Assembly: GCA_016784945.1 (NCBI GenBank)
Contig: JADHTP010000004.1
Span: forward strand, 1-35,491
Source: Deltaproteobacteria bacterium
Lineage (GTDB): Bacteria; Myxococcota_A; UBA9042; DTJE01
DNA length: 35,491 nucleotides
Reading direction: 5' to 3'
Shown: piece after piece, positions 15,408-34,060 of the stretch
Numbering within the stretch: the first letter of the stretch is position 1
Layout: each line of letters opens with the position of its first letter
Made by a program: the position numbers and the translations under genes
The notes under the pieces: model-generated
What the model saw: the letters and a program-made list of their open reading frames with translations, nothing else
Told to the model about the DNA's origin: nothing
The model's database searches: none

Positions 15408-16223
15408 ATGACACAGGCAAGCCCCCTCCATCCAGTGGTCCTGGTGGTGGACGACGATCCGGGCTGCGTTCGCGCCATCCGACGCGCCCTGGAATACGCG
15501 GGAATGGGGACCGTGGCCGCCACCAGCCTGGAAGAGGCCCATGAGGCCCTTCAAAGGCACGACCCGGCCTGCGTGATTACGGAATTTCGCATGCCTGACG
15601 GGCAGGGGGTGGAATTCCTGACCCGGTCCCGGGAATCGGTCGAACACCTGGGGCGCGTCATGCTGACCGGGGTGGTGGACTTCCTGGCGGTACAGGAGGC
15701 CGTCAACCAGGGCTCCGTCCACGCCTTCTTCACCAAGCCCTGGGACAACAACAGCCTGGTTCAGGGCGTCAAGGGTGTCATCGAACAGTGTCGTCTCGCG
15801 CGCGAGAACACGGAAATGATGCGACAGCTGTCGGAACACAACCGGGTCCTGGAGGCCACGGTCAAGGAAAGGACGGGGCAGCTCGAACAGGCCAAGAGCG
15901 AGCTGGAAGCCGTGTTCGATTCCTGGGACGAGCCGGTGGCCATCGTGGACAACCGGTTCACGGTCCTGAGGGCCAACAAAGCCTATTCCAGGCAGGCCGG
16001 GCTGGTCGTGCGGGATGTGCCGGGCCGCCTGTGTCACGAGGCCCTGTTCCACCGGGAATCGCCCTGTGAGGACTGTCCCCTCGGGCGCGAGCCCGTTGAC
16101 GACGGCCCGCGGGAAGGCCGGATCGCGCAGGACGGGAACGAGTGGCGCATCATGACACGGTCCATGGGTATCGCCCGTCGAACCGGGCAGGCGGCGCTCT
16201 GTCGCTACGAGCTCCTGCGGTGA
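15408..16223 (+). CDS. Atypical receiver-coiled coil-PAS protein with Glu at the phosphoacceptor position
   Basis: VVLVVDDDPG, CVITEFRMPDGQG, VMLTGVVD, FFTKPWD; PAS segment AVFDSWDEPVAIVDNRFTVLRANKAYSRQAG...RLCHEALFHRESPCEDCPLG. Confidence 0.8.
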   Translation: MTQASPLHPVVLVVDDDPGCVRAIRRALEYAGMGTVAATSLEEAHEALQRHDPACVITEFRMPDGQGVEFLTRSRESVEHLGRVMLTGVVDFLAVQEAVNQGSVHAFFTKPWDNNSLVQGVKGVIEQCRLARENTEMMRQLSEHNRVLEATVKERTGQLEQAKSELEAVFDSWDEPVAIVDNRFTVLRANKAYSRQAGLVVRDVPGRLCHEALFHRESPCEDCPLGREPVDDGPREGRIAQDGNEWRIMTRSMGIARRTGQAALCRYELLR

Positions 16224-16510
16224 AGGTCGTCACGGCACATCCCGAGGGCACGGTGCTGGAAATCAAGGTCCGCCCACGGGCCGGGAAATGCCGGGTGACC
16301 CATCGAAAAGACGGTACCGTTGTGGTGGAAGTCACGTCGGCGCCCGAAAACGGCCAGGCCACGAAGCAGGCGCTTCGTACCCTGGCCCGGGCCGTGGGGC
16401 TGAGGTCTTGTGACGCCACCATCTTGAAGGGCGCCAGAAACCGAAAGAAGACCGTGCTGCTCAAGGGCCTTACGAAGGGGGCCTGCCTGGCCGGACTGGA
16501 AGTTTCATGA
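16220..16510 (+). CDS. DUF167/YggU-family protein
   Basis: GTG start overlapping the previous stop; LEIKVRPRAGKCRV...VEVTSAPENGQATKQALRTLARAVGLR...ILKGARNRKKTVLLKG. Confidence 0.8.
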   Translation: MKVVTAHPEGTVLEIKVRPRAGKCRVTHRKDGTVVVEVTSAPENGQATKQALRTLARAVGLRSCDATILKGARNRKKTVLLKGLTKGACLAGLEVS

Positions 16511-19092
16511 GCAAGGGACCGAAAAAATCCAAGGGACCCACGGAGCCGCTGACCCACATGGTGGCGGCCATTCCCCTGGCACTGGTGTCCGGGTGCCTGG
16601 TGTTCCTGTCCTTTCCCACCTATGACCTGTTTCCCCTCCAGTGGGTTGCCCTCGTTCCCCTGCTGGTGGCCGTTCGAGGACGCGGCCTGCAAAGCGGACT
16701 GTTCTTGGGTTTCTGCACGGGACTGGTCACCAATGTCGGCGGTTTCTACTGGATTTCCGGACTACTGGGGGAATTCGGCCACATGGGTCCCATCCCGTCG
16801 GTCGCGCTGATGCTGGTGGTGGCCTCCTACCAGGCCATACCCAACGCCCTGGCCACGGGACTGTCGGCCATCGTGGCCCGACGTTTCGGGCCGTCGGCTT
16901 GGTTCCTGGCCTTTCCCGTCCTGTTCACCGCCACCGAGTTCCTGGTGCCCTTCATCTTTCCCTGGTATTTCGCCAACGGTCAGCAACCCTTCCACGCCGT
17001 CACCCAGATCGTTGATATCACCGGCGTGTCCGGGCTGACCTTCCTCCTGGTTCTCGTGAACTGTGCCCTGGCCGCCGTGGTGACGCAGCGGCTGGCGAGG
17101 CAGCCCTTTCCAATCGTCCGGGTGGCCTCGGCGGCCGTCGTGCTGCTGGCATCCCTAGTCTACGGTGTGATGACCCTGCGCAGCGTGGACAGACAGGTCC
17201 GGGAAACCCGCAAGTTCCGGGTGTCCATGGTGGAAGCCGACGTGGGCATCTGGGAAAAAGAGGCCCAGCTTCCCGACGGGTCTCCCATGCCCTGGGAACA
17301 GCAGGTGCGCATGCTCTACGGCAACCTGCTTAAGCACCAGTTCCTCACGGCCGATCTGGAGCGCGAGGCGAAACCCGACCTTATCGTATGGCCCGAGTCT
17401 TCCTATAACCCGCTGCACGCGGTCTTTGCCCGGCGAACCGACGCCTTCGCCGTCACGGCCGGCGCGGGCGGCAAGGCGTCCTGGATCACCGCCCGGGGCA
17501 CCCGGCCCCTTCCGGGCGCGGACACGGCATCGCTGAGCGTCACGGGCATCCGCGGCGTGGCGGCCGCCCACGAGGAGTTCATCGTCGCGGTGGGAGCGCG
17601 TGGAGCCATCCATGTCTTCAACGGCCGGACATGGACCCGGGAACCATCGGGCACCGATCGCGACCTCTTTGCCGTGGCCGCCATTCCGGGGACCGGGGAT
17701 GCCCTGGCCGTGGGCGCCCAGGGGACGGTCGTGCTCCGCAAGGGAGGCCGCTGGGACACCCTGGAACCGGGGACCTCGGTGGACCTGAAAAGCGTCACCT
17801 GGTCGGGCGGAAGGAGCTTCGCCACCTGCGGTGACCAGGGGACACTCGTGACCCTGAAAGGCCGCCGGGCCACCTTGATCGACACGGGCACCACACAGGA
17901 CCTCCTGGCCCTGTCCTGGTCGGACCAGCGGGGATTGGTGGTCGTTGGTCGGGAAGGCTCCGCTCTCCGGGTGGAAGGCAGGCGAACCCTGAAATGGGGG
18001 ACAGGGGCCATGGTGGACTTCCTGGGCGTGGCGGCCGGAAAGGACACCTGGATCACCGGCCGAAAAGGCCTGTTATTGCGGTGTCGCGAGGAATGCGAAC
18101 GGATCAGGACGGGGCTCGACGAGGACCTCGTATCGGTTTCAGGTGACGGGGGGGGCAAGGCCTGGGCCGTGGGTGCCCGCGGGACGGTGCTGGCCCTGTC
18201 CGGCGACGCCGCGCGAAAGGTGGCTCCATTGGCGGGCCACGGTCCCCTGGGCAAACAGCGATCCGTGGCCTGGGTGCCCCTGCGCGAAGGATACCCCCTG
18301 TACCGGGACGTCCGCTATCTCTACACGTCCCCCGAACCGCTCCCCGGCGCCGGCTCCGCCGAGGATCCCGGACAGGCCGTGGACGCCGACCACGACACAC
18401 CCACCCGGGACCGGAATGCCGCCATTCGGGGATTCTCCACACCGTTGCTCATGGGGGCGATCACCTACCGGAACCTACCGGGCTTCGACAGCGAAAGCGA
18501 GTACTTCAACACGGCCCTCCTGGTGGCGCCGGACGGGGAGGTCCTGGGGCGCTACGACAAGAACTACCTGTTGATATTCGGCGAGTACCTCCCCTTCTCC
18601 GACTGGTTCCCCTTCCTGAAGACCTGGCTGCCCGAGGCCGGAGACTACCGGGCCGGCGAAACCGTGGAGGTCTTCGAACTGGACGGCGTCCGTATCGGCC
18701 TGATGATCTGCTACGAGGACATCATCCCCAGTTTCACGCGGCGCCTGGCGGACAAGGACCCCCACATCCTGGTGAACGTCACCAACGACGCCTGGTTCGG
18801 CAAGACCTCGGAACCGTATCAACACCTGCAACTGGCCACGTTCAGGGCCATCGAGAACCGCCGGTTCCTGCTGCGATCCACCAACACGGGGATCACGGCC
18901 GTTGTGGACCCCGCGGGACGCATACTCCAGCACACGTCCCTGGAGGAAGCGGAGGTCCTCACGGCGGACATCGCCGTCATGACCGGGGACACGCTGTACC
19001 GGCAACTGGGGGACGTGTTCGCCTGGGGATGCTGCGTGCTGTCTCTGCTGGGGTTGGTGGCCACCCGGTTGCGACGGGGAAAGAAGGCATGA
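16507..19092 (+). CDS. lnt: Apolipoprotein N-acyltransferase with beta-propeller-like insertion in the nitrilase domain
   Basis: N-terminal TM domain (VLFTATEFLVPFIFPWYFANGQ); nitrilase motifs VWPESSYNP, RYDKNYLLIFGEYLPF, LMICYEDIIP and VNVTNDAWFGKTSEPYQHL. About 275 aa of FAVGAxGTV-type repeats lie between the WPE and K motifs. Confidence 0.9.
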   Translation: MSKGPKKSKGPTEPLTHMVAAIPLALVSGCLVFLSFPTYDLFPLQWVALVPLLVAVRGRGLQSGLFLGFCTGLVTNVGGFYWISGLLGEFGHMGPIPSVALMLVVASYQAIPNALATGLSAIVARRFGPSAWFLAFPVLFTATEFLVPFIFPWYFANGQQPFHAVTQIVDITGVSGLTFLLVLVNCALAAVVTQRLARQPFPIVRVASAAVVLLASLVYGVMTLRSVDRQVRETRKFRVSMVEADVGIWEKEAQLPDGSPMPWEQQVRMLYGNLLKHQFLTADLEREAKPDLIVWPESSYNPLHAVFARRTDAFAVTAGAGGKASWITARGTRPLPGADTASLSVTGIRGVAAAHEEFIVAVGARGAIHVFNGRTWTREPSGTDRDLFAVAAIPGTGDALAVGAQGTVVLRKGGRWDTLEPGTSVDLKSVTWSGGRSFATCGDQGTLVTLKGRRATLIDTGTTQDLLALSWSDQRGLVVVGREGSALRVEGRRTLKWGTGAMVDFLGVAAGKDTWITGRKGLLLRCREECERIRTGLDEDLVSVSGDGGGKAWAVGARGTVLALSGDAARKVAPLAGHGPLGKQRSVAWVPLREGYPLYRDVRYLYTSPEPLPGAGSAEDPGQAVDADHDTPTRDRNAAIRGFSTPLLMGAITYRNLPGFDSESEYFNTALLVAPDGEVLGRYDKNYLLIFGEYLPFSDWFPFLKTWLPEAGDYRAGETVEVFELDGVRIGLMICYEDIIPSFTRRLADKDPHILVNVTNDAWFGKTSEPYQHLQLATFRAIENRRFLLRSTNTGITAVVDPAGRILQHTSLEEAEVLTADIAVMTGDTLYRQLGDVFAWGCCVLSLLGLVATRLRRGKKA
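17410..18240 (+). repeat. About seven tandem ~40-aa propeller-like blades encoded inside lnt
   Basis: Repeats of the form D-L-x-x-V-x-(5-8)-x-x-A-V-G-A-x-G-T-V-x-x-x-x-G-x-x-W: DLFAVAAIPGTGDALAVGAQGTVVLRKGGRWDTLEPGTSV / DLKSVTWSGGRSFATCGDQGTLVTLKGRRATLIDTGTTQ / DLLALSWSDQRGLVVVGREGSALRVEGRRT / DLVSVSGDGGGKAWAVGARGTVLALSG. Confidence 0.75.
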
Positions 19093-21196: not shown

Positions 21197-24100
21197 CTAC
21201 TTGAGGATGCCTTCGTCCACCAGGAGCTGCTCGATGAGGGCGATGCGGTCCTCGAGGTCCTCGATCCGCTGGTCCCTCTGCTGGATCTGCCGGTCCAGGG
21301 TCTTGAGGCCCGCCATGAGGAGACCGTCCATGTCGTTGAGGCTGTAGCCGTGCTTGTCCACGCCGTTACCGTCCGCAGTGGCCATACCCAGTTCGTCGGG
21401 CAGGCTCTCGGCGATCACACCGATGTGAGGCACCGTGCGGTAGACCTTCCTGACGGCCAGTTCAAGGTGCTTCTCCCGCTCCCGGCCACCCACCTCTACC
21501 TCGATCCTCTTATCGATTTCCTCGCCGCTCATGGAGGTTTCTTCGTATTCCTTCCGCTTCTTGGCCTCGATCCCGCGTACTTCCTCTTCGGCTATAGCCT
21601 GGGCCGACGCGCGGTCCCGTATTTCCTCATTCATGTAGAACTTGGCGGAACGGACCTGGCGCAGGCTCGACAGAACCCACTCGTCGTCCTTGGCATCCAG
21701 GTCCTGGATGTCCTTCTTGAACTTCTCGGAGGAAATGGTGATGAATCCATAGGACTCCATCCGGTGCCATACCCGGTACTCGCGATTCCAGTGATAACCC
21801 ATCCAATAGCCGTTGTTGCTGTGCGGAATGATGTGTCCCGAATTCATCCAGGAGGTGGCCTGGTAGAAGTCCGAGCCATGAAGCCGCAGACCGTCCACAC
21901 GGCCGTAGTTGGCGTGGAAGTGGCCATGAACGTAGGCGTCATAAACACCCAGGCGACCGGTCTGTGAACCACTGCCGTCGGTCCCGTCCCAGTAGCAGCC
22001 CGTGTTGTTCCGGTCATAGAACCGGTCACCCCAGACGCTGCCGGAGGTGTAGAAGCCCGTGTTGGTCCACAGGCCGTAGGAAGAATGGGAGCCCAGGTAC
22101 CACGACGTGTTCCAGCCGCCGCCGTTGACCCGGCCGGGGTACATGTAGTTGTACTGGTACATGGAGATACCCTTCGAACCGCCGCCGAGCCAGGGGGCGA
22201 ATTGACCCAGGACCACGTTGGCATTCTTGGAAAGGTAGATGGATGATCCCATCCGCGAGTTGCCCGCCGGGTCCACGTAGTAGGTATGGTCGTTGCCGTC
22301 ATAGTACAGAGGAGCCGTCATGTAGGTCAGGCTCTGGGACCAGCCCTGGACCGACAGGTTCGGGTTCGTGCTGGAATTCTTGCGCAGGTTCAGGTTGTTG
22401 CCGCTGGGGGTGAGGTTCATGTCGTTGCCGTTCCAGCGGATCCCCTCGTTGGATTGCATGAAATACAGAGGATCACTCAGTTGCAACCTGTTGATATTCG
22501 ACGTGGAGGCCGGGTTCACGTAGTAGCCCGGATTGTCGGCATCGCGGAAGACTCTGGCGTCCAGGTTGCCGTACACCGTCATGGTGTTGCCGCCGCAACC
22601 GCCGGTGAAGACCCGAACGGGCCCGCAACGGTAGTGGTTGATCTCGAGGGGATCGCCGGCCGCACCGGTGTTGATGGTATCGAAATAGGCGTTGTTGCCG
22701 TAAAGACCATAGGAATTGCTGCCGCCGGACCGGACGGAACCGTAGTACCGGATGACGTTCATGTCGCTGGTGCCGTTCGGGTCGGCGTCCCGGGCGGTGT
22801 TGCCACGGTCCACGAACCGGTTGGCGATGACCTCGTCGGCTGTGATGTCGCCGCTGGTGGTGAAGCTGATGTTGGACGCCAGGTCGCCGCCGGCGATGGT
22901 GCCGTTGGCGATGTCGGCCGAAGAAACGGCGCCGTCCTTGATGTCCGCGCTGTCGATGCCGCCGCCGGCCTTGGTGGTCAGTTCACCCAGGAACTCCAGG
23001 TCACCCTTGTGGTAGGCCTTGCCGTTGGCGTACAGGGCGTGGGTGACACCCGTGTTGCCGGGGGCCTCGGTGTAGATTTCGAACCGTTCCGACTGGTCGT
23101 ACTCGTTGCCAAGGACCAGTTGGAAGGCGATCTGCTCGTCGGAGGCAGTGGTGTGGTTCCGGAAGTAGGCGTAGTCCTGAGAGCCGCCGTCATACAGGTG
23201 GAACTTGAAGCCAGCGTTCAGGTACAGGTCCTCGGTGCCCTTCTTGAAATACAGGGCGCCATGGTCGTGGGCCGCGGGTGACACTTGGGTGTAGTCCACA
23301 GTGACCAGGGCGTTGCCGTCCACGCTGAGGCCCGATCCGAACTTGGCCACACCCACCGCGGACGCGGTGGCCTTGTCGATCTTGGAACCCGAGATGGGGC
23401 CCGCGATCTTGACGTTCGTCACCTGCATGTTGTTGATGTCCGCGGTGTCCACGCAGCCACCGGGGCAGTTCACGTCCACGGCCGGACCACCCTTGGAACT
23501 GGAACCGGCGTAGTTGTTCTGCAGTTCGGCGTTGCCCACGCAGCCCGTACAGGTCAGGCCCGTGGCGTCGCCACCCTGGCTGGCGGAAGCCGCGTAGTTG
23601 AAGTCGATGTCGCTGTTGCCCACGCAGCCGGAGCACTGCAGGCCCGTGGCATCGCCGCCCTTGGCGGTACCGGCCGCATAGTACACGCTGCCGTGGATTT
23701 CACCTTCCACCACGCAGCCCGAGCAGGCCAGGTCGGAAGCCGCGCCGCCCTTGCTGGCCGATCCGGCGTAGTTGAAAGCCACGTCACCGGTGCCGACGCA
23801 ACCCACGCCTGCTCCGCCGAAGTTGGGGCATTCCACGTTGGTGGCCGGGCCGCCCTTGGAATTGGAAGCGGCATAGTTGAAGTCCACCTCACCGCTGCTC
23901 ACGCACTGGGAAGAGCAGGTCAGGTTGAGGGCCGCGCCGCCCTTGCTGTCCGAATCCGCGTAGTTGAAGTTGATGTCGGCGTTGCCCACGTTGCCGTCGG
24001 CAATCTTTGCCGCGGTCACCGCGTTGTTCTGGATGTGGTGGGTGCCCACCGCACCGGCGGCGCCGGTCGGGTCGTCCTTCAGCTTGTTGGAATCCACGGC

Positions 24101-24763
24101 GTCGTTGGCGATCTTGTCCGTGGTAACGGCCCCGTTGTACAGGTTCCAGGAGCCGATGGTGCTGCCCGCGATGTTGCCCACGCCGGTGAGGTTCTGGGCA
24201 CCGGTAATGGTGGTGGTGGCCACGTCGGTGTTGGCCACACATCCGTTGCAGACCAGGTCGTCGGCCGGGCCGCCCTTGGTAGCGGAACTGGCGTAATTGA
24301 CCGCCAGGTCCGCCAGGTCGATGCACCCGGACGGGTTGGCGCAATCCACGTCGGTGGCGGCACCGAGCAACTCGTCGCATTGCTCCGCGTGCTCTGCCTG
24401 GAAGGCGAAGCCAACCGAAGTGATGGCCCGTCGTGGCAGGACGTCGGTCCCGATCTGGATTTCGAGGTATACCTGCGACTTGTCAACGAATACCGTGGGC
24501 GATACCGGCCCCAGATAGACGTTGAACACGCCGCCTACCACCGATGCGGTCTTGATCTGGGTGAACAGAAGCGACCCACCGCTGGAGGCGTCGAACAGCC
24601 GGAACGTCATGCCGTAGTTTCCCGTCACGACCTCGCCGGCAACATTGCGCAACACGCCCTGCACATTCAATTGTGAGGGGACGTGATCCTGCGCGTAGGC
24701 ATCACCGACAGCCATGCCTACGACAAACACGCAGGCCAACACAAACTTGAGGAGCGACTTCAT
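21197..24763 (-). CDS. Giant exported protein: Cys-pair repeats, tail-fibre-like region and C-terminal peptidase S74/intramolecular chaperone domain
   Basis: Signal peptide MKSLLKFVLACVFVVGMAVGDAYAQ; repeats NYAxSxSKGGxAxxLxCxGCV; phage-fibre-like DRNNTGCYWDG / YYVDPAGNSRM motifs; C-terminal ITISSEKFKKDIQDLDAKDDEWVLSSLRQVRSAKFYM and PHIGVIAESLPDEL. Confidence 0.85.
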   Translation of the reverse strand: MKSLLKFVLACVFVVGMAVGDAYAQDHVPSQLNVQGVLRNVAGEVVTGNYGMTFRLFDASSGGSLLFTQIKTASVVGGVFNVYLGPVSPTVFVDKSQVYLEIQIGTDVLPRRAITSVGFAFQAEHAEQCDELLGAATDVDCANPSGCIDLADLAVNYASSATKGGPADDLVCNGCVANTDVATTTITGAQNLTGVGNIAGSTIGSWNLYNGAVTTDKIANDAVDSNKLKDDPTGAAGAVGTHHIQNNAVTAAKIADGNVGNADINFNYADSDSKGGAALNLTCSSQCVSSGEVDFNYAASNSKGGPATNVECPNFGGAGVGCVGTGDVAFNYAGSASKGGAASDLACSGCVVEGEIHGSVYYAAGTAKGGDATGLQCSGCVGNSDIDFNYAASASQGGDATGLTCTGCVGNAELQNNYAGSSSKGGPAVDVNCPGGCVDTADINNMQVTNVKIAGPISGSKIDKATASAVGVAKFGSGLSVDGNALVTVDYTQVSPAAHDHGALYFKKGTEDLYLNAGFKFHLYDGGSQDYAYFRNHTTASDEQIAFQLVLGNEYDQSERFEIYTEAPGNTGVTHALYANGKAYHKGDLEFLGELTTKAGGGIDSADIKDGAVSSADIANGTIAGGDLASNISFTTSGDITADEVIANRFVDRGNTARDADPNGTSDMNVIRYYGSVRSGGSNSYGLYGNNAYFDTINTGAAGDPLEINHYRCGPVRVFTGGCGGNTMTVYGNLDARVFRDADNPGYYVNPASTSNINRLQLSDPLYFMQSNEGIRWNGNDMNLTPSGNNLNLRKNSSTNPNLSVQGWSQSLTYMTAPLYYDGNDHTYYVDPAGNSRMGSSIYLSKNANVVLGQFAPWLGGGSKGISMYQYNYMYPGRVNGGGWNTSWYLGSHSSYGLWTNTGFYTSGSVWGDRFYDRNNTGCYWDGTDGSGSQTGRLGVYDAYVHGHFHANYGRVDGLRLHGSDFYQATSWMNSGHIIPHSNNGYWMGYHWNREYRVWHRMESYGFITISSEKFKKDIQDLDAKDDEWVLSSLRQVRSAKFYMNEEIRDRASAQAIAEEEVRGIEAKKRKEYEETSMSGEEIDKRIEVEVGGREREKHLELAVRKVYRTVPHIGVIAESLPDELGMATADGNGVDKHGYSLNDMDGLLMAGLKTLDRQIQQRDQRIEDLEDRIALIEQLLVDEGILK
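23445..24360 (-). repeat. Tandem Cys-pair repeat region (about eight units) within the S74 protein gene
   Basis: Units such as NYAGSASKGGAASDLACSGCVVEGEI, YYAAGTAKGGDATGLQCSGCVGNSDIDF and NYAASASQGGDATGLTCTGCVGNAEL, with recurring DNA-level similarity. Confidence 0.8.
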
Positions 24764-25170
24764 AGGGCCACCTCCAAATACGCACCGTGGTTCCATACCT
24801 TCCCAAGACCTCAAAAAACGACCGCCACGCTGGCGTTCGTCTCATTTCCGAACAAATAACCGGCAAAGAGACAGTTTCTCGCGCAAATGGACATCCGTTG
24901 CCCCAAACCCCGCAAGAATTTCACAGCCATCCTTTCGGACTTTTGTCCTCTTACCAGCAACTCCAAACAGATCAAGCACTTCGGGACCACACCAAAACGC
25001 GCCGGTCACCCGAAGCAAAGCCGAAGTAAGAATTTAGCACGTTTTGTACCACCCGTCAGCACTCCCCGGATAAAGTTCACGGGGGGGGCGCCATCGACAT
25101 GTCGTGGTCGTCGAACACCAATGGGCTTCTCCTGCCGCTGGGGGTTCCTCACCGTCCCAGTCGTTTCAGA

Positions 25171-29800: not shown

Positions 29801-30979
29801 TTGAGACTGCTGGATTCAGTCCAGGAAAGTTCCATCGTGGTGGTCCTCGGCGACGGGGGCGTGGGCAAGACCACCGTGGCTTCCGCCCTCGCCATGCTGG
29901 CCGCGGCCCGGGGACGTCGGGTGCTGGCCGTCACCGTGGACCCCTCCAACCGCCTCAAGACCGCCATGGGCCTGACCGGGCGGCCCGGCGAAGAAGAGCC
30001 CGTGGATCTCGGGGGTCTTCCCGTTGCCGAAACGGGAGGCTCGCTTCATGCCATGGTCCTGGATGCCGCCACGGAGATGGACCGGTTGGTGGATCGCCTT
30101 CTCCCCACGCCGGAAGCACGTCGGCGGATCACGGACAACGTGTTCTATCGCAAGGCCGCCGCCACCATGGCGGGCACCCACGAATACATGGCCATGGAAC
30201 GGTTGCTGGAAGCCCTGGAGTCCGGGCGATACGACCTGGTGGTCCTGGACACGCCCCCGGAACGACACGCCCTGGATTTCCTGGATGCACCGGCGCGCCT
30301 CGACGGGTTGCTGTCCAGTGACGTGTTCCGCCTGTTCGTGACGGCGTCCGCGGGCCTGGGACGAATCGGACTCGGCGCCTTGCGCTGGCGTTCCGTGATC
30401 CTGAAGGGCATCAGCAAGTTCGCCGGAGAGGAGACATTTCTCGCCATCCTGGACTTCGTTCTGGCCTTCCAGCCCCTGTTCGAGGGCTTCAGACAGCGGG
30501 CGGCCCGGGTCGGTTCGTGGTTCACGGGGCCGGACTGTTCCACCCTCATCGTCTGCAGGCCGGGCCCGCAGTGCGCCCGGGAAGTGTGTTCCACCCTGAA
30601 CGCCCTGCGCGGACGGGGCATCGAACCCGCGGCAGTGGTGGCCAACCGGGTCCGGTTCTGGCCGCCTTCCGGATCCGACGCCCGGACCGCCAGGCCGGTG
30701 ACGGCCAGCACGCTCCGGAAGACGCTGGAATCGAATCCGGCGCTCAGCCTCCATGATCCGGCCACCATCGAGCGACTGGCCGCCCGCACACTGGACCTGG
30801 CGGGGAGCTACCGTGAACTGGCCAAGGAGGACCGGGGCCACATGGAGTCGCTGGCGGCCTCCACCGGGCCGGTGGCCCTGTACGAGATCCCGCTGCTCAA
30901 GGGAGAAGTGCGGGACCCCGCCACCCTCGCCCTCTTCGCCGCCGTTGTCGAACAAGCCGTTTCAGGCGATCTTGCGTAG
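29801..30979 (+). CDS. ArsA/Get3-family anion-transporting ATPase-like protein
   Basis: VVLGDGGVGKTTVASALAMLAAARGRRVLAVTVDPSNRLKTAMG; YDLVVLDTPPERHALDFLDAP. TTG at 29801 is the annotated start. Confidence 0.8.
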   Translation: MRLLDSVQESSIVVVLGDGGVGKTTVASALAMLAAARGRRVLAVTVDPSNRLKTAMGLTGRPGEEEPVDLGGLPVAETGGSLHAMVLDAATEMDRLVDRLLPTPEARRRITDNVFYRKAAATMAGTHEYMAMERLLEALESGRYDLVVLDTPPERHALDFLDAPARLDGLLSSDVFRLFVTASAGLGRIGLGALRWRSVILKGISKFAGEETFLAILDFVLAFQPLFEGFRQRAARVGSWFTGPDCSTLIVCRPGPQCAREVCSTLNALRGRGIEPAAVVANRVRFWPPSGSDARTARPVTASTLRKTLESNPALSLHDPATIERLAARTLDLAGSYRELAKEDRGHMESLAASTGPVALYEIPLLKGEVRDPATLALFAAVVEQAVSGDLA

Positions 30980-32398
30980 ACCGTCCACGGGATTGATGCG
31001 GATGGCCCGCAGGGAAGACAGGAGACAGGACAGCAGAACCACGAGAACCGACAGGCCGGCAATGGCGGCTATGTCCTCCCAGTGGATGATCGCGGGCAAC
31101 TCGGTGATGTGATAGACTTTCGGATCCAGGGCAAAGCCGATTTTCTGGATCAGGCGCACGATACCGTACCCCAGCACCAGCCCCACGGCCACACCGGCAC
31201 AGCCCAGGATGAACCCGTGGGTCACGAAGACCCGGTACAGCTGACGGCGGGCGGCCCCCAGGGCCACCAGCGTGGAAATCTCCTTCAGCCGCTCTCGGGC
31301 CACCACCAGCTGGGTGCCCACGATGTTGAAGGCCGCCACCACCACGATGATCAGGAAGAACAGGGCAAGGACCACCTTCTGCATCCTCAGGGCCGAAAAC
31401 AGGTTGCGGTTCATCTGTTTCCAATCGATGAGCCGGTACCGGCTGGGCGGCCCCGCACCGAGGTCGCTGTATTCCAGTCCCTTCTTGAGCCGGGACACGC
31501 CAGCAAAGAGGTCCTGCACGTGTGGTTCGCGGTCGGCGGGGGGCAGGATCCCTTCCGTGAGACGGGACGCATCGCGCCGAAGCCTGGCCGCGTCCCGCAC
31601 CAGGTCCGGGAGTGTATAGGGTTGGAGGGCGGACAGGACCTCCAGGCGCATCCGATCCGTGTCGAACAGGTCTTCGAGACGAATTTCGATCCATCGCACG
31701 GCGGGTCCCCGATTGAGGAACCGCTGTGCCGATGCCAGGTCCATCACCACCAGCCGTGAGTCGTACTCGTAGAACCCCGAATCGAAACAGTCCCTGACCA
31801 CGAAGGACTCTTCCATGGGGGCCATGCCCAGGGGACCGGCGGTGCGACCTTCGAGGCCGCGGATGGGGGTGGTCAGCGTGACACGGTCCCCGGGCGCCAC
31901 CCGCAGCCGATCGCGCAGCTCGCACCCGATCACCACCTCCATGGGGGCGCCTTCCTGAAAACGAATGGATTCCAGTGACCCGCCGTGGGTCAGGTCCCTC
32001 AGGTTGGAAACCCCGTCAATCCCGTCCAGGGCCACACCCTTGACGATGGCGCCGGCGGTGCCCGAGTCCGACGAGACCATCATCTCGTCGTAGGTGGAGG
32101 GATTGGCCCCCTGAACCCCGGGGACCCGGGACAGCCGATTGGTGACCTCCCGGTAGTCTTCGAACCGTTCACCCCTTTTCAACACCACCAGGTGGGGATA
32201 GACACCGAGGATCCGTTCGCGGAAGGCCTCCTCGAAGCCGCCGGTGACGGACAGGACCGCCGTCAACGTAGCCACCCCCACCCCGATCCCGAGGACGGAC
32301 ACCACCGTGGCCACGGACACACGAGACCGGTTCCGACCCGCGAAAAGGGTCAGGCCCATGGACCATGAAAAAGGCAGTCTCTTGAGGAGTCCTCCCAC
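30962..32398 (-). CDS. LolC/LolE-type lipoprotein-releasing ABC transporter permease
   Basis: LFAGRNRSRVSVATVVSVLGIGVGVATLTAVLSVTGGFEEAFRERILGVYPHLVV; C-terminal FtsX-like TM domain. Confidence 0.85.
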   Translation of the reverse strand: MGGLLKRLPFSWSMGLTLFAGRNRSRVSVATVVSVLGIGVGVATLTAVLSVTGGFEEAFRERILGVYPHLVVLKRGERFEDYREVTNRLSRVPGVQGANPSTYDEMMVSSDSGTAGAIVKGVALDGIDGVSNLRDLTHGGSLESIRFQEGAPMEVVIGCELRDRLRVAPGDRVTLTTPIRGLEGRTAGPLGMAPMEESFVVRDCFDSGFYEYDSRLVVMDLASAQRFLNRGPAVRWIEIRLEDLFDTDRMRLEVLSALQPYTLPDLVRDAARLRRDASRLTEGILPPADREPHVQDLFAGVSRLKKGLEYSDLGAGPPSRYRLIDWKQMNRNLFSALRMQKVVLALFFLIIVVVAAFNIVGTQLVVARERLKEISTLVALGAARRQLYRVFVTHGFILGCAGVAVGLVLGYGIVRLIQKIGFALDPKVYHITELPAIIHWEDIAAIAGLSVLVVLLSCLLSSLRAIRINPVDGLRKIA

Positions 32399-32476
32399 CA
32401 GCTCTCCCGGATGATCGGGGGTCGCAACGAAGAATACTATTGACTATTGGCGCAGGACTGTCGACCATTTTCACCC

Positions 32477-34060
32477 GTGAGCACTCAATCGAAACTCCGG
32501 TCGGGGCCCTGGTGGAAAGTGCTGCTTTGTGCCCTGGCCACCGCCGCGATGCTCGTGGCGATCCTTCCGGACCACGGCCTCTGGTACCTGACGCCGGTGG
32601 CCCTCATTCCCCTGTTCTTCGTGCTCCCGGACCTGTCCTGCGGCAGGGGATTTCTGGCCGGGTGGCTGGCGGGGACCCTGGCCAACATGGGCATCTTCCA
32701 CTGGATCGTCCATACCGCCGTCACCATGAGCGAGTTTCCCTTTGCCCTGGCCTTGCTGGTTCTGCTGGCCTTTGCCATGTACTCCGGCCTTCCGTTCGGA
32801 TTGCTGGCCCTGGTGGGCCGCTCCCTGCTCAAACGACGGGGGGCCGTGTGGACCGTGCCGGCGGCCCTGGTGACCCTGGAATTCCTGTGGCCCAACCTCT
32901 TTCCCTGGCACCTCGGCAACGCCTACTTCCGGGTGCCCCTGCTGATGCAGGGAATGGACCTGACGGGAATCTACGGAGGCTCGTTCGTCTCGACCGCGGT
33001 GGCCGTGGCGGCGGCCACCTGGCTCCGCGGACGCAACCGAGGGGACCGGGTGCCCCTTTCCGTGCCGGTAGCGGCCGCGATCCTGGTGGCGGCCTGGACG
33101 GGCTACGGCGCCATCCGGCTCCAGACCCTGGACAGGGGCGAATCGGCCCCCACGCTGACCCTGGCCCTGGTGCAACCCGACATCACCGCCGAAGACAAGA
33201 AGCGCCGCGATGGCAAGAGCCGGAAGGCCCTGTTCGCCAGGTTGAAGGGGCTCACGGAATCGGCGGACCTGGAAGGTGTGGATGCGGTGGTCTGGCCCGA
33301 AGGGGCCTTTTCCTTCTATTTCGCCCCGGATTCGGAAGGACGGAAGGGCTGGACGAACATCGTTCAGACGTCCCGTCGCCTGGTGGCCATGGTAAGGGAC
33401 CTGGAAAAGCCCCTGGTGTTCGGATCCCTGACGCGCCCGCTGAACTCGCGCACCCGCAACTCGCTGGTCATGCTGGGTTCCGACGGACGGGAAGTGGAGC
33501 GCTACGACAAACGGGTCCTGCTGGCCTTCGGCGAGTACATGCCCCTGTCGGACACATTCCCGTTCCTCAAGAAGAAGGTCAAGGAAGTGTCGGACATGGT
33601 GGGAGGGGACCGGGCGGTTTCCTTTCCCGTGGGTCCCGGCCGGGCCCTGGGTTCCATCTGCTACGAGGCCATCTTCCCCACGCTCACCCGCCAGTCCCTG
33701 ATCGAGACCGGATCCAATCTCATCCTGAACGTGACCAACGACGCCTGGTTCGGCACCAGCGGTGCTCCGGCGCAGCATCTCATGGTCCAGGCCCCCCGGA
33801 CCGTGGAACTGCGGGTTCCCCTCGTCCGACTCACTGAGACGGGGATCTCCGCCGTGATCGGGCCATCGGGCGAGTTCGCCTACGAAACGGAACTGCACGA
33901 AAGACGGGTGGACCGGGTGGTCATTCCCATGGTGGACGGATCGAGCGTCTACCGGGAGGTGGGGGACGTTTTCGCGTGGGCCTGCGTGGCGCTGGTGATC
34001 GCGTCCCTGGCCACGGGCTACTTCAGGAGGAAGAAGTCCCTTTCCACCAGGATCGGATAG
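32477..34060 (+). CDS. lnt: Apolipoprotein N-acyltransferase (second paralog, no insertion)
   Basis: VVWPEGAFSFYF, RYDKRVLLAFGEYMPL, GSICYEAIFPTLTR, LNVTNDAWFGTSGAPAQHLM. GTG start likely at 32477 (ORF open to 32447). Confidence 0.9.
   Translation: MSTQSKLRSGPWWKVLLCALATAAMLVAILPDHGLWYLTPVALIPLFFVLPDLSCGRGFLAGWLAGTLANMGIFHWIVHTAVTMSEFPFALALLVLLAFAMYSGLPFGLLALVGRSLLKRRGAVWTVPAALVTLEFLWPNLFPWHLGNAYFRVPLLMQGMDLTGIYGGSFVSTAVAVAAATWLRGRNRGDRVPLSVPVAAAILVAAWTGYGAIRLQTLDRGESAPTLTLALVQPDITAEDKKRRDGKSRKALFARLKGLTESADLEGVDAVVWPEGAFSFYFAPDSEGRKGWTNIVQTSRRLVAMVRDLEKPLVFGSLTRPLNSRTRNSLVMLGSDGREVERYDKRVLLAFGEYMPLSDTFPFLKKKVKEVSDMVGGDRAVSFPVGPGRALGSICYEAIFPTLTRQSLIETGSNLILNVTNDAWFGTSGAPAQHLMVQAPRTVELRVPLVRLTETGISAVIGPSGEFAYETELHERRVDRVVIPMVDGSSVYREVGDVFAWACVALVIASLATGYFRRKKSLSTRIG

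Follow-up and report, generated by a model that had tools for sequence, protein, structure and literature searches.

The window (the whole 35,491-nucleotide stretch of DNA analysed here) encodes an apolipoprotein N-acyltransferase, Lnt1, whose catalytic domain is interrupted directly behind the catalytic glutamate by a domain that is predicted to be a seven-bladed beta-propeller (Table 1). We regard the insertion as genuine and as spread across the class, in an enzyme that matters to the cell envelope; its existence and fold are well supported, and its function is what we infer from the evidence below.

Table 1. Coordinates of the features discussed in the text.
Feature	Position in the window	Strand	Basis or details
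yggU (DUF167), directly upstream of lnt1	16214..16510	+	PF02594
Lnt1, apolipoprotein N-acyltransferase with internal propeller	16507..19092	+	861 aa; ORF translation, TIGR00546, Lnt fold
Lnt1 N-terminal membrane domain and first nitrilase part (residues 1-302)	16507..17412	+	LNT_N, predicted helices
Lnt1 catalytic glutamate E297 (= E. coli E267)	17395..17397	+	WPE motif; E in 40/40
Lnt1 inserted seven-bladed beta-propeller, predicted (residues ~303-597)	17413..18297	+	AF2, Foldseek, alignment with insert-free relatives
Lnt1 linker (residues ~598-640)	18298..18426	+	Alignments; recognisable in insert-free relatives too
Lnt1 second nitrilase part and C-terminal TM helix (residues 641-861)	18427..19089	+	CN_hydrolase; conservation
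Lnt1 catalytic lysine K685 (= E. coli K335)	18559..18561	+	Invariant, 40/40
Lnt1 catalytic cysteine C735 (= E. coli C387)	18709..18711	+	Invariant, 40/40
FtsX/MacB-type permease, divergent from Lnt2	30962..32398	-	PF02687 FtsX, PF12704 MacB_PCD
Lnt2, second Lnt without insert	32447..34060	+	537 aa; TIGR00546 231.8 bits, LNT_N, CN_hydrolase

Sequence, modeled fold and active site all place Lnt1 in the Lnt family, with N-acylation itself a predicted activity. The protein scores 255.8 bits against the NCBIfam lnt equivalog model TIGR00546 (cut-off 132.9), and a Pfam search finds LNT_N at residues 28-187 (PF20154, 5.8e-28) and CN_hydrolase at residues 656-823 (PF00795, 7.3e-31), with no match between the two. 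Helices are predicted over residues 18-233 of the Lnt1 model, with strands after, and when the full-length model is compared with the PDB by Foldseek, the top 24 matches are all Lnt (best E 6.4e-22, target-normalised TM 0.72-0.82). The triad of E297, K685, and C735 is kept in all 40 aligned insert-bearing proteins, and its neighbors E693, Y736, and E737 are invariant in the same set. ORF translation, Pfam, and TIGR00546 thus agree with the initial annotation, which had described an 861-residue Lnt with all motifs intact. The Lnt enzymes of E. coli and P. aeruginosa (5n6h, 5n6m, 8aq2; TIGR00546) share with Lnt1 the membrane and nitrilase domains, the E-K-C triad, and a similar fold, but their arm 5 is a short loop, in the place of which Lnt1 has its ~295-residue propeller.

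Comparison with insert-free relatives places the extra domain at residues ~303-597 (window 17413-18297); it starts six residues past E297 and so lies, as had been claimed, directly behind the WPE glutamate. The initial annotation was also right that extra residues are present, but it ended them at 18240, ~57 bases short of the true end. Seven AVGxxG-type motifs at residues 316, 360, 400, 439, 478, 515, and 553, spaced 37-44 residues apart, account for the approximately seven ~40-residue repeats noticed earlier; 5000 shuffles of the same residues gave a mean of 1.1 such motifs and a maximum of 7. Third-position GC is 0.83 in the insert, between the values of the flanks (0.80 and 0.88), a pattern as expected for one native gene, and the frame is open through the insert in all 40 proteins of the full-length alignment, so that the proposal of a true in-frame fusion with consistent codon bias stands.

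Structure prediction, which the initial annotation had put forward as a check, was carried out with AlphaFold2 on a 40-sequence alignment from the window and its relatives, and it returned a confident propeller both for the insert in isolation (residues 298-614; pLDDT 91.6, pTM 0.89) and within the whole of Lnt1 (pLDDT 91.1, pTM 0.90). In a Foldseek comparison of the insert model with the PDB, seven-bladed designed propellers come first (7bid, E 1.1e-9, TM 0.74/0.81), followed by YCF48 bound to a D1 peptide (E ~1e-7). Together, the seven repeats, the strands in the models, and the best match to a seven-bladed design lead us to model the insert as a seven-bladed beta-propeller, with ring closure judged from the structural match. 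The sequence profile of the insert matches Ycf48 chains at 6e-13, ranked just after two other propeller proteins, and PF14870 (PSII_BNR) is matched by 7 of the 40 inserts (best 1.3e-7), the window's own insert falling below Pfam thresholds. A Ycf48/BNR-type propeller, as originally suggested, is therefore a fitting description of what the insert resembles, although we do not count it as a Ycf48/PSII_BNR member. Ycf48/HCF136 (2xbg, 5ojr, 8am5) is likewise a propeller with seven blades, located on the exported side of a membrane, and is the nearest natural fold to the insert, as well as being among its best sequence-profile matches. It is, however, a separate lipoprotein that serves in photosystem II assembly, a role neither expected in Myxococcota nor claimed for the Lnt1 insert, which has no photosystem context, and the two are only 11-16% identical in fold alignments. 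Conservation drops from the enzyme core (mean majority-residue share 0.56-0.66, with 0.66 across residues 641-820) to the insert (0.40), in which the pair C526/C530 is among the residues invariant within the nearest families.

The position of the insert relative to the active site can be read from the insert-free relatives, in which WPE(S/T)(S/A)Y runs almost straight into the linker LPRSAKRFPPSKAPL...DRNAPIRGF. A linker pattern, PRDxxxxxxSxxPLP...DRNAxxRGF, is common to these relatives and the window protein, and the propeller breaks Lnt1 exactly between the WPE motif and this linker. In E. coli Lnt, the loops after E267 are arms of a funnel leading to the catalytic triad (PMC5500888 Fig. 7); by homology, the insertion site would be arm 5, a loop ringing the Lnt pocket that comprises the segment past E267 toward helix alpha2 (PMC5500888), a correspondence that we read from the alignment and the figure legend. 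Lnt arms 1, 3, 7, and 9 differ in shape between reaction states, and arms move upon the binding of peptide products (PMC10313180). Because the insert starts only six residues past E297, the N-terminal end of the propeller is tethered close to the catalytic glutamate, and if the propeller is closed, its C-terminal end must also lie near this residue. In two families of other Myxococcota (f41 and f42; L124-L127), Lnt carries an unrelated ~100-residue extension at the same site past the WPE glutamate, from which it appears that the loop accepts insertions.

The initial annotation had called for a search for other Lnts with an insertion at the same site; among 52 examined genomes of the window's uncultured Myxococcota class, 46 have the insert (43 inside one frame, 3 split over contigs), and 11 of the 12 families of the class are represented, the exception being f5, a family of one genome. 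As for the remaining six, G009 and G016 have only an insert-free copy, the gene is cut at a contig edge in G001, and Lnt1 was not found in G033, G047, and G049. Among 141 sampled genomes of the phylum, full-length matches to the 40-row insert profile fall solely in Lnt frames of the class; elsewhere, matches run part-way and lie in other frames. A presence of the insert throughout Myxococcota is not supported in this sample, and the long Lnt frames taken from the rest of the phylum owed their length to other causes. As a separate observation, family f19 (e.g., G058 and G121, one contig each and 97-99% complete) gave no Lnt match in the listed genomes, and five f19 genomes searched with TIGR00546 gave weak nitrilase-like matches only; this family may be without Lnt.

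In a tree built from the enzyme core with the insert left out, Lnt2 is split from the remaining Lnts with a support of 100/100, and the insert-free L075/L076 and L098, representing two lineages, are nested among insert-bearing Lnt1 sequences. One genome (G003) has both an insert-bearing (L016) and an insert-free (L075) copy of the same Lnt branch; another (G035) has two different insert-bearing Lnts (L026, L128). The simplest reading is one gain followed by at least two losses, and the insert-free same-branch copies L075, L076, and L098 imply that at least some lineages can dispense with the propeller. A single clade of all Lnt1 sequences of the class is not rejected (p-AU 0.075), with free trees breaking the clade weakly, and a strict single origin of class Lnt1 is to that extent not firmly shown.

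Lnt2 has counterparts in most genomes of the class, that is, an insert-free second Lnt is the rule. The permease gene beside it in the window may, judging from its domains, be LolC/E-like. Lnt1 has response regulators, yggU, a nucleotidyl transferase, and APH as neighbors, and near relatives share the gene order upstream (two response regulators, then yggU and lnt1; tblastn, 11 relative loci). Genes for LspA and Lgt-like proteins are present in the window's genome; in the window's family (f1), each genome has two or more Lgt-like matches, and the first lipoprotein modification step may be duplicated there. The window also contains, on the - strand at 21197-24814, a gene for a 1205-residue repeat-rich protein, the C-terminal part of which resembles, by eye, a chaperone domain of the tail-spike type.

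Separate exported propeller proteins with the same AVGxxG repeat are common across the class; they have the repeat of the insert but are not fused to Lnt. The insert is 29-33% identical to such stand-alone propellers of the window's genome (G000, contig C51; L114), and a relative of a ~640-residue (641-aa) propeller ORF is found in 49 of the 52 class genomes. By a simple pattern used without a background rate, a lipobox-type signal is present in 18 of 31 propeller ORFs with a visible start region, including both tested ORFs of the window's genome (L114; LTAC and AGAC). In many class genomes, propeller proteins of ~650, 900-930, and 1400-1500 residues cluster on the same contigs, and many of the clustered proteins have a lipobox (L114, L134-L153). 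Propeller proteins with a lipobox would be Lnt substrates; from this one may suspect, though not conclude, that the Lnt1 propeller derives from, or recognizes, the propeller lipoproteins of the class. Since nearly every class genome has both, the presence of the insert cannot usefully be contrasted with that of the propeller lipoproteins.

How might a propeller at this site act? We envisage that a Ycf48-like propeller was gained inside the loop after the catalytic glutamate (arm 5) of a class Lnt, and that Lnt1 would still follow the customary ping-pong mechanism via C735, passing an acyl chain from a phospholipid to the N-terminal cysteine of diacylated lipoproteins. With both ends tethered near the catalytic glutamate, the propeller would sit where the pocket opens to the periplasm. 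Its surface would dock or gate substrate polypeptides, for which the propeller lipoproteins of the class are possible candidates, or a partner, and could in this way adjust the choice of substrates admitted or the timing of product release; the insert-free Lnt2 may take the remaining substrates. Pointing in this direction are the confident models, the binding of Ycf48 to the newly made membrane polypeptide D1 (PMC10403576), the arm 5 site, the kept triad, the class-wide spread, and the propeller ORFs of the same repeat type throughout the class; the faster evolution of the insert and the insert-free copies of the same branch speak against it. We put the chances that the propeller works in the periplasm as a docking or gating module, placed at the mouth of the active site of an otherwise normal Lnt, at about even. 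A bolder version, in which the class would sort its lipoproteins by a two-Lnt system with a peptide-binding propeller rim, differently acylated or timed pools, and the propeller lipoproteins as clients, seems doubtful at present.

The propeller could instead serve handover or scaffolding, by binding the machinery that next sorts lipoproteins, such as a Lol-type transporter, or some other protein of the envelope, without contacting the substrate during catalysis. Propellers elsewhere are often modules for protein-protein contacts (BamB, TolB-Pal), and an FtsX/MacB-type permease does adjoin an Lnt gene in the window; this gene, however, is the insert-free lnt2 rather than lnt1, whose own neighbors include no obvious partner, and we consider such a role unlikely. 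We likewise hold it rather improbable that the insert is a passenger that the enzyme tolerates, in which case one of the propeller repeats abundant in the class would have landed in a permissive loop and would have weak or no function there. Its fast evolution, the insert-free copies in two nested lineages, and the unrelated f41/f42 extension at the same site would all fit a passenger, but an open, foldable domain of similar size has been retained in 11 families and 46 genomes, and residues such as C526/C530 are invariant within the nearest families.

More improbable still is that Lnt1 has taken up a new acyl acceptor or donor, with its specificity supplied by the propeller and Lnt2 left as the general lipoprotein N-acyltransferase. 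Although the two Lnts of most class genomes and the multiple Lgt-like matches in the window's family are in line with such a division, Lnt1 scores higher than Lnt2 on the Lnt equivalog model (255.8 versus 231.8 bits), and all examined catalytic and second-shell residues are retained. Finally, the window is one contig of a fragmented metagenome-assembled genome (MAG; 247 contigs, 68% complete), a source in which two genes could be joined into a chimera by assembly; yet the same join is found in dozens of independent genomes, in one of them in a protein 60% identical to Lnt1 over nearly its full length, and on named public MAG contigs (L038-L042, L044, L045), which were found with short peptide patterns, a search that leaves room for similar Lnts outside the phylum. 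The recurrence of the join rules out an assembly error, as the initial annotation had held, and leaves the chimera with a vanishingly small probability.

The mycobacterial Lnt-Ppm1 is an end-to-end fusion of Lnt to a polyprenol-phosphate-mannose synthase and, like Lnt1, has an extra functional domain, but not one inside the catalytic domain; in the open-access literature searched (with subscription papers and preprints outside its scope), we found no earlier report of a propeller in Lnt. Lnt is essential in many Gram-negative bacteria, is studied as a drug target, and is thought to recognize mainly the lipidated N terminus of its substrates. A conserved propeller within residues of the catalytic glutamate would lend itself to testing whether Lnt can be made selective or gated, and it might explain why two Lnts are retained in class genomes; Lnt copies with and without the propeller, found even inside a single genome (G003), form a ready experimental pair.
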